From a virus: a DNA stretch of 64,000 bases. The DNA is taken from IMG/VR virus record IMGVR_UViG_3300048029_000212, positions 96,051 through 160,050 of that record; one strand, 5' to 3'. Of this stretch, positions 38,092 to 39,915 are shown in pieces. A program made the translations under genes and the position numbers. How positions within the stretch are numbered: the stretch's first letter is position 1; each line of letters opens with the position of its first letter. The notes beneath the pieces are model-generated. The model worked only from the letters and a program-made list of their open reading frames with translations, was not told where the DNA came from and ran no database searches.

Positions 38092-38119
38092 GTCACCTTA
38101 ATTAATCGAGTTGTATATT

Positions 38120-38716
38120 ATGAAACCAAAAGAAAAACCACATTACGTAAGTAATAGAGATTTCTCAAATGCAGTGGTGGAGTACTGCACTGAAGTCCGA
38201 GAAGCCAAGTCTAGTGAAAAATCCGTACCTGTTGTTCCGGATTATATCGCATCTTGTTTTCTTAAGATTGCAGAAGGTCTCTCTCACAAGGGGAACTTTG
38301 TGCGATACACTTATCGTGAAGAAATGGTTATGGACGCTGTTGAGAATATGCTCAAAGCGATTGAGAACTATAATATAGAGGCCGCAACTCGTAGTGGCAA
38401 ACCAAATGCGTTCGCTTACTTTACGCAGATCTCGTGGTTCGCGTTTCTTCGTAGAATAGAGAAAGAGAAAAAACAACAGAACATCAAACTCAAGTATATT
38501 GCCGAAGCGGATGTTATGGACTTCTTGGCTGAATCACTTGAGGAAGATGGATATACAGCTCAACAAGCATCTCCTTTCATTGACTCTTTGCGTATGCGCA
38601 TTGACGCAGTAAAGTCTGCAGATCATGAGTTCAAAGAGTATGTGAAGGAAGAAAAACAACGTCGCCGTCGTGCGGTAAATGTAGACTCAGACTTATCAGA
38701 ATGGATGGAAGATTAA
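38120..38716 (+). CDS. 55: Late sigma factor gp55
   Basis: A 198-residue sigma-70-family late transcription factor (T4: 185). The core NMLKAIENYNIEAATRSGKPNAFAYFTQISWFAFLRRIEKEKK is the sigma region 2-like segment conserved in T4-like gp55. gp55 directs RNA polymerase to TATAAATA promoters together with gp45 and gp33. An in-frame TTG at 38111 is possible, but the GAG at 38108-38110 suits the ATG at 38120. It sits behind a perfect sigma70 promoter, as expected of a middle-phase regulator. Confidence 0.92.
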   Translation: MKPKEKPHYVSNRDFSNAVVEYCTEVREAKSSEKSVPVVPDYIASCFLKIAEGLSHKGNFVRYTYREEMVMDAVENMLKAIENYNIEAATRSGKPNAFAYFTQISWFAFLRRIEKEKKQQNIKLKYIAEADVMDFLAESLEEDGYTAQQASPFIDSLRMRIDAVKSADHEFKEYVKEEKQRRRRAVNVDSDLSEWMED

Positions 38717-38717
38717 C

Positions 38718-38746
38718 TTGACATGACTCCTATACTATAGTATAAT
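38718..38746 (+). promoter_or_regulatory. Consensus sigma70 promoter for tRNA-like element and genes 47/46
   Basis: TTGACA at 38718-38723, a 17-bp spacer and TATAAT at 38741-38746, immediately after the gene 55 stop. The spacer and -10 form a palindrome, TATACTATAGTATA. The predicted RNA starts near 38753, about 20 nt before the tRNA-like element. Confidence 0.88.
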
Positions 38747-38773: not shown

Positions 38774-38842
38774 GCGGGAGTTCGTTATGGAGACAGTGAG
38801 TACCCCTTACTGTAGTAGGTGAAATCCCTACATCCCGCTCCA
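38774..38842 (+). ncRNA. Degenerate tRNA-Gly-like element in the gene 47 leader
   Basis: These 69 nt fold as a shortened tRNA. Acceptor GCGGGAG (38774-38780) pairs with ATCCCGC (38832-38838) except for the last pair. Discriminator T and an encoded CCA follow, exactly as in bacterial tRNA-Gly. An anticodon arm AGTGA/TTACT encloses loop GTACCCC, with U33 and anticodon ACC (Gly). A T arm GTAGG/CCTAC encloses the 7-nt loop TGAAATC. The D arm is shrunken to about 3 bp and the T loop is not canonical, so it may not be a working tRNA. It could be a processing or regulatory structure. The element ends 14 nt before gene 47. Confidence 0.55.
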
Positions 38843-38856
38843 ATTACTGAGAGTTT

Positions 38857-39915
38857 ATGAAGATCGCTATATTGAATGACACCCACTGCGGGTGTCGCAA
38901 TTCATCTGAAATTTTTATGGATTACCAAGAACGTTTCTACGTTGAGGTGTTCTTTCCTTATCTGCTTGAGAATAACATCTCGCAGATCCTTCACTTAGGT
39001 GACTATTACGATAATCGTAAGACGGTCAACCTCAAGGCGCTTAGTCACAATCGTAGAATCTTTTTAGACAAGCTGCGTGACTATAATATTCACATGGACA
39101 TCATTCCCGGCAACCACGATGTGTATTACAAAAACACCAATGGTTTGAACTCCCTCAAAGAGTTGATGGGTCATTACATGAACGAGGTCGATATTCTTAT
39201 GGACCCGATCGTTCGTGAGTACGACGGTGTTAAGTTTGGTCTTGTGCCTTGGATCTGTCCAGAGAATGAGAAAGAGGTAATGACTTTCTTGGACAACTGT
39301 GGCGCCGATGTGATCGGTGGCCACTTCGAGCTCGCAGGGTTTGAGATGGACAAGGGTCTGGTTTGTAAAGAGGGTATGGACCCCAAACCACTGCAGAAGT
39401 TTGAGACAGTTCTGTCCGGACACTTTCACACCAAGTCAAGCAAGGGTAATATACACTACCTAGGCGCGCAGATGGAGTTCTTCTGGAACGATGCGCACGA
39501 CCCCAAGTATTTCCACATCTATGACACAGAAACGCGTGAACTGACGCCTGTGCAGAATGACGTGACTATCTTCCACAAGATCTATTATGATGAGGACACG
39601 GTTAAGTATTTCGAAGACTTATCATATCTTGACGGCAAGTTTGTTAAACTGATAGTGTCCAACCGATCCGACCTACAGAAGTTTGAACGATATGTAGAAC
39701 GCATTCAACAACAGAAAGTTCATGAGTTGAAGATTGCCGAAGACTTCCGTGAGTTTCGTGGTGAAAATGTCTCAGACGAAGATTTAAGGGTTGACGACAC
39801 GGAAACTTTAATCTATAATTACATACAAGAAGTCGAAACTGATTTAGACAAGGACCGCATTAAAAGTGTTGTGTCCGAATTGATGGTAGAGGCGCAGGCC
39901 GTAGAAATTGCATGA
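38857..39915 (+). CDS. 47: Recombination nuclease subunit gp47 (Mre11/SbcD-like)
   Basis: A 352-residue calcineurin-type phosphoesterase, the nuclease partner of gp46. Metal-binding motifs are visible in order: NDTHCG near residues 7-12, GDYYDN near 49, GNHD near 85, and GHFHTKSSKG near 188. The complex resects double-strand ends for recombination-dependent replication and degrades host DNA. The start is ATG at 38857, with GAGAG just after the tRNA-like element. The stop overlaps the ATG of gene 46 (ATGA). Confidence 0.94.
   Translation: MKIAILNDTHCGCRNSSEIFMDYQERFYVEVFFPYLLENNISQILHLGDYYDNRKTVNLKALSHNRRIFLDKLRDYNIHMDIIPGNHDVYYKNTNGLNSLKELMGHYMNEVDILMDPIVREYDGVKFGLVPWICPENEKEVMTFLDNCGADVIGGHFELAGFEMDKGLVCKEGMDPKPLQKFETVLSGHFHTKSSKGNIHYLGAQMEFFWNDAHDPKYFHIYDTETRELTPVQNDVTIFHKIYYDEDTVKYFEDLSYLDGKFVKLIVSNRSDLQKFERYVERIQQQKVHELKIAEDFREFRGENVSDEDLRVDDTETLIYNYIQEVETDLDKDRIKSVVSELMVEAQAVEIA

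Follow-up and report, generated by a model that had tools for sequence, protein, structure and literature searches.

The window analysed here is a stretch of viral DNA of 64,000 nucleotides (positions 96,051 to 160,050 of IMG/VR record IMGVR_UViG_3300048029_000212), in which gene 55, for the late sigma factor, is followed by a perfect sigma70-type promoter and then by gene 47, which encodes an SbcD-like recombination nuclease subunit (Table 1). Between the promoter and gene 47 lies a compact RNA of 69 nt that resembles tRNA-Gly, here termed E1. It begins 27 nt past the TATAAT box, and 14 nt separate its end from the gp47 start codon. The first-pass annotation of this DNA had described a fold of this length with acceptor, anticodon and T-like arms, a discriminator T and CCA, placed between these same two signals; the promoter and the gene start are verified in the sequence, and the fold is borne out by sequence and folding alike. 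MFE folding predicts that in every E1 leader haplotype the element is enclosed by an outer helix, P0. An alternative in which the 5' strand of the anticodon stem pairs with the ribosome-binding region was rejected, as MFE prefers P0 in all haplotypes. A separate, perfect 7-bp hairpin (GACACCC-ACUGC-GGGUGUC) occupies window positions 38873-38891, within the first gp47 codons, and its pairing is retained via G-U changes in the E1-bearing relatives checked.

E1 is predicted to form a compact four-helix cloverleaf (fold z-score -3.3) with the geometry of a tRNA: an acceptor of seven layers, six of them base pairs and the seventh G.A, is followed by U73 and the encoded CCA, and is directly abutted by the T arm. 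The anticodon arm has, as first described, the loop GUACCCC, in which U33 precedes the anticodon ACC. Its stem has 7-8 bp and not 5, and because the 32-38 pair covaries (G-C/A-U) the loop may be one of 5 nt (UACCC). The D arm is shrunken to about 3 bp (UUC/GAG), as the first-pass annotation had it, but with 3-4 bp present its suggestion of a D-armless tRNA is wrong. Position 37 is C, and the elbow nucleotides G18, G19, U55 and C56 are absent. The bacterial glycine identity set as known from E. coli, namely U73, G1-C72, C2-G71, C35 and C36 (PMC9976931), is present in E1 and invariant across E1 and the two sister copies, E2 and E3, described below.

Table 1. Coordinates of E1, its parts, its neighbours and its sister copies (window positions unless a contig is named).
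Feature	Position	Strand	Evidence or remark
Gene 55, late sigma factor, upstream neighbour	38111-38716	+	phrog_234, E 1e-46
Perfect sigma70-type promoter (TTGACA, 17-nt spacer, TATAAT)	38718-38746	+	boxes at 38718-38723 and 38741-38746; upstream of E1 and gp47
Predicted outer helix P0, 5' strand UUAGUAA	38758-38764	+	MFE of all leader haplotypes; invariant
E1, compact tRNA-Gly-like RNA with encoded UCCA	38774-38842	+	69 nt; sequence, folding, descriptor, covariance model
Acceptor, 5' strand GCGGGA	38774-38779	+	pairs with 38833-38838; two pairs covary with E2/E3
Reduced D arm UUC-GUUAUG-GAG, without G18G19	38781-38792	+	folding and joint alignment
Anticodon hairpin, 7-8 bp	38793-38813	+	5 pairs changed on both sides
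U33; anticodon ACC	38801; 38802-38804	+	GCC instead in contig L106 and E3
T-like arm GUAGG-UGAAAUC-CCUAC, without T-psi-C	38815-38831	+	abuts acceptor directly; stem invariant
Acceptor, 3' strand UCCCGC; U73; CCA	38833-38838; 38839; 38840-38842	+	UCCA invariant in all copies
Predicted outer helix P0, 3' strand UUACUGA	38844-38850	+	invariant; overlaps start of weak gp47 SD region
Gene 47, SbcD-like recombination nuclease subunit	38857-39915	+	phrog_100, E 7e-98; PF00149; ATG at 38857
E2, tRNA-Gly(ACC)-like, same genome	L109:9505-9572 (= G000:C1:9505-9572)	+	strict descriptor; covariance model
E3, anticodon GCC, 151-kb relative	L236:7175-7244	-	covariance model

The first-pass annotation had warned that a standard tRNA finder might miss this element, and this is the case. 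Default ARAGORN makes no call on E1, E2 or E3, and Rfam, including the tRNA model RF00005, returns nothing for any of the three even at E<=10, so that none reaches the score cut-off of these bacterial tRNA models; the mitochondrial modes of ARAGORN give nothing consistent for E1. At a 70% threshold ARAGORN does place a tRNA-Gly(acc) at exactly the boundaries of E1, amid 304 calls per window, and because so many places score we take this call to be no evidence. A strict descriptor was therefore defined by geometry: an acceptor with at least 6 of 7 pairs, an abutting T arm of 5 bp and 7 nt, an anticodon arm of 5 bp and 7 nt with U33, and CCA, with no demand for a D- or T-loop consensus. In the window it finds only E1 and the two true tRNAs, against a single match when 12 Mb of random sequence is scanned (about 0.011 per window). 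The reading of E1 as a riboswitch or known leader family was dropped because there is no Rfam match.

Besides the window's own record, 17 IMG/VR contigs carry E1, each time in the gp47 leader, and the copies comprise six element sequences. Seven of the 22 columns of the anticodon hairpin vary, as against 2 of 93 in the remaining leader (p = 1e-4), and no variation occurs in the acceptor, D or T arm, while the fourfold sites of gp47 differ by 15-58% between the E1-bearing phages. On this comparison the three arms evolve far more slowly than the anticodon stem, whatever the history of exchange. Within the hairpin, columns 27/33 change jointly from G-C to A-U and columns 24/37 from U-A to G-C, and a mismatch or bulged C interrupts the stem of some haplotypes. 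The loop keeps U33, C35, C36 and C37 in every E1 copy, and position 34 is A, or G in L106. That E1 is the decaying relic of a captured tRNA-Gly, as had been suggested at first pass, could be argued from these stem defects and from the non-canonical elbow. We find it scarcely credible given the near-invariance of E1 outside the anticodon hairpin, where the acceptor, D and T arms are identical in all E1 copies, set beside gp47 fourfold divergence of up to 58%, and given the compensatory changes between E1, E2 and E3. The confinement of variation to the anticodon hairpin would also suit a decoy, an RNA resembling tRNA-Gly that keeps host anticodon nucleases, or other defences aimed at tRNAs, occupied or else eludes them, with an anticodon arm that changes under attack, and phage tRNAs have been proposed or shown to counter defences of this kind (PMC10264068, PMC11555353). 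However, the fixed loop core, U33 and C35-C37, is what anticodon nucleases usually read, relaxed constraint on the stem accounts for the variation equally well and no defence partner is known, and a decoy is in our judgement very improbable.

In close relatives that lack E1, among them the isolate Phage C48C1, a short leader lies between the same promoter and gp47, and most E1-free relatives also retain a perfect sigma70-type promoter. In the gp47 phylogeny, phages with and without E1 intermingle inside one clade, which suggests that alleles of the gp47 leader have been exchanged between phages. A ATAAGTTGAGTTGAG-type motif, which may be a site of translational control, is conserved in most of the short alternative leaders (L012-L077, for example L013 just upstream of 1245). 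A different long leader (L132-L139), which follows the same kind of promoter, has a possible hairpin (ACACACATGTCACATGAGTGTGT) about 130 nt upstream of gp47.

The genome that contains the window carries a second copy, E2, which starts 6 nt past a di-haem cytochrome c peroxidase-like gene (PF03150) and 30 nt ahead of a tRNA-Ala, and which is present in three further contigs (L216, L217 and L218). The third copy, E3, sits at the corresponding place in its genome and is followed after 5 nt by a canonical tRNA-Gly(GCC). Phage C48C1 is empty at both known insertion sites, the gp47 leader and the E2 site. The peroxidase-like (CCP_MauG) gene lies beside the tRNA region in both settings (L109:8068-9498 and L236:7457-8911). 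Pairwise identity between E1, E2 and E3 is 70-74%, and a nucleotide search of the genome using E1 missed E2. A covariance model built from the E1 copies only scores E2 at 63.6 bits (E 3.6e-19) and E3 at 62.1 bits (E 1.2e-18); the same model gives canonical tRNA-Gly genes about 24 bits (E 2e-5). Covariance models R1 and R3 found no additional member in the window's record or the other records searched, and no annotated phage carrying a copy came up in blastn searches with the leader, E2 or E3. In a scan of bacterial genomes a first pattern gave no hits and a second gave 5 places, whose weak or partial model scores are inflated by the selecting pattern, with no convincing member among them. Two sets of candidates, both obtained from viral contigs by degenerate DNA patterns with too-short or coding-biased gaps, were set aside: L107 and L111-L121 are chance coding hits, and L208, L209, L211-L213 and L215 are ordinary tRNA-Gly(UCC) genes.

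Joint alignment of the three elements reveals 8 pairs altered on both sides, a number reached in none of 500 shuffles, and 97% of pair cells are standard, with far lower values in slid registers; these counts lean towards structure, since the alignment was fitted to the covariance model. The T stem never varies among the copies, so that the covariation rests on the other helices, and acceptor pairs 5 and 6 change while the glycine identity nucleotides stay fixed. From these comparisons we conclude that the structure of E1-E3 is kept by selection and is not decaying. The first-pass annotation had made its proposal depend on covariance support, and this support is found, outside the T arm; together with the glycine identity set, the CCA end and the location of the sister copies in tRNA regions, it upholds the likening of E1 to tRNA-Gly. 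Neither of the sister copies, nor helix P0, had been noticed in the first-pass annotation. It is formally conceivable that the elements form a structured RNA family of another kind, such as a four-way junction that binds a protein or a ligand, and that their likeness to tRNA-Gly is partly accidental or ancestral only. The lack of a match to the tRNA model would fit such a family, as would the conserved features foreign to tRNA, namely the UACCC/UGCCC loop, the T-loop core GAA and the D-loop UAU, without an elbow motif. We nevertheless consider it quite improbable, because the glycine identity set, U73 and CCA are invariant though adjoining acceptor pairs change, the acceptor and T arm abut in the fashion of a tRNA, and one copy stands in tandem with a canonical tRNA-Gly.

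Given their glycine identity, their encoded CCA and their location in tRNA regions, the elements are best read as glycine tRNA-like genes. According to this reading, which we favour with some reserve, E1 is probably one of a small family of tRNA-Gly genes, compact, non-canonical and not annotated before, which these marine T4-like phages carry and whose RNA would be transcribed early, processed and charged by glycyl-tRNA synthetase (GlyRS). The window's own record, which may be incomplete, has about ten canonical tRNAs, none of them for glycine. In the model we propose, the early promoter would transcribe E1 together with gp47 as one RNA, RNase P would cut on the 5' side of 38774, trimming past 38842 would fall to an exonuclease or a 3' nuclease, and host GlyRS would charge the freed E1. 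The product could give the phage a Gly-tRNA(GGY) of its own, or stand in for the normal tRNAs while evading the host's attack on them; phage tRNAs able to replace attacked host tRNAs or to withstand such attack have been proposed or shown (PMC10264068, PMC11555353), which makes such a benefit plausible. Processing would leave 14 nt of leader on the gp47 mRNA and, by removing the P0 5' strand, would expose the gp47 ribosome-binding region, so that it may also switch gp47 on. P0 may in this way tie E1 processing to gp47 translation.

The same helix could instead act in cis, E1 being a regulatory leader of tRNA-like origin whose fold, with P0, gates the gp47 ribosome-binding site, perhaps via GlyRS or tRNA-processing enzymes, with no free tRNA produced. 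It accords with this that every E1 contig has the element between promoter and gp47, that P0 is predicted in all leader haplotypes and overlaps the start of the SD region, and that the flanks of E1 are as invariant as the element itself. However, E2 and E3 sit in tRNA regions and not in the 5' leaders of protein genes, many relatives with the same promoter and gp47 have no such leader, and regulation in cis has no need for an encoded CCA or glycine identity; we regard this account as rather unlikely. The narrower idea of the first-pass annotation, a tRNA mimic used for processing or regulation, is possible for the leader copy E1. On the sequence evidence, E1 is real, selected and missed by annotation, a variant of tRNA-Gly and a candidate tRNA. 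As counts of phage tRNAs rest on finders that miss the E1-E3 family, they may understate both the translation capacity of phages and their use of tRNAs in counter-defence. Here, moreover, a tRNA-like gene forms part of the leader of a gene for a DNA-recombination nuclease, and natural alleles of that leader with and without E1 exist.

The E. coli thrS operator also places a tRNA-like fold in an mRNA 5' leader, close to the ribosome-binding site; E1 differs from it in that CCA is encoded and sister copies lie in tRNA regions. With canonical bacterial tRNA-Gly(GCC) the elements share the GCGG start of the acceptor, U73, the encoded CCA, U33, C35 and C36. They depart from it in the short D arm without G18G19 (D loops of GUUAUG, AGUAUU and GUUAU type), the T loop KGAARYY where the canonical loop is TTCRANY (UGAAAUC, GGAAGUU and UGAAACU, with no T54-U55-C56 elbow), the 7-8 bp anticodon stem, the variable region of about 3 nt and C37, and most E1 copies and E2 differ further in their anticodon ACC. 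The non-proteinogenic tRNA-Gly of staphylococci are likewise variants of tRNA-Gly, whose altered elements let them escape EF-Tu (PMC9976931). Their role is in the cell wall, whereas a search of the phage record for aminoacyl-transferase partners found neither a FemAB-family enzyme nor a leucyl/phenylalanyl transferase.

In architecture E1 comes close to tRNA-Pyl, with which it shares an elongated anticodon stem, a small D loop without G18G19, no T-psi-C, a short variable loop (3 nt in E1) and a single base between the acceptor and D stems (PMC7609411). E1-E3 are unlike tRNA-Pyl in their glycine identity and in carrying anticodon ACC or GCC and not CUA. A tRNA-Pyl-shaped class of tRNA-Gly, charged with glycine and working outside ordinary decoding as a defence-resistant substitute, decoy or regulator, with one gp47-leader copy whose processing or charging sets nuclease expression, is an extension that we consider unlikely. 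The closeness to tRNA-Pyl means that a non-canonical shape does not exclude a working tRNA, and the E1 family stands as a natural candidate for a glycine tRNA without the canonical elbow.
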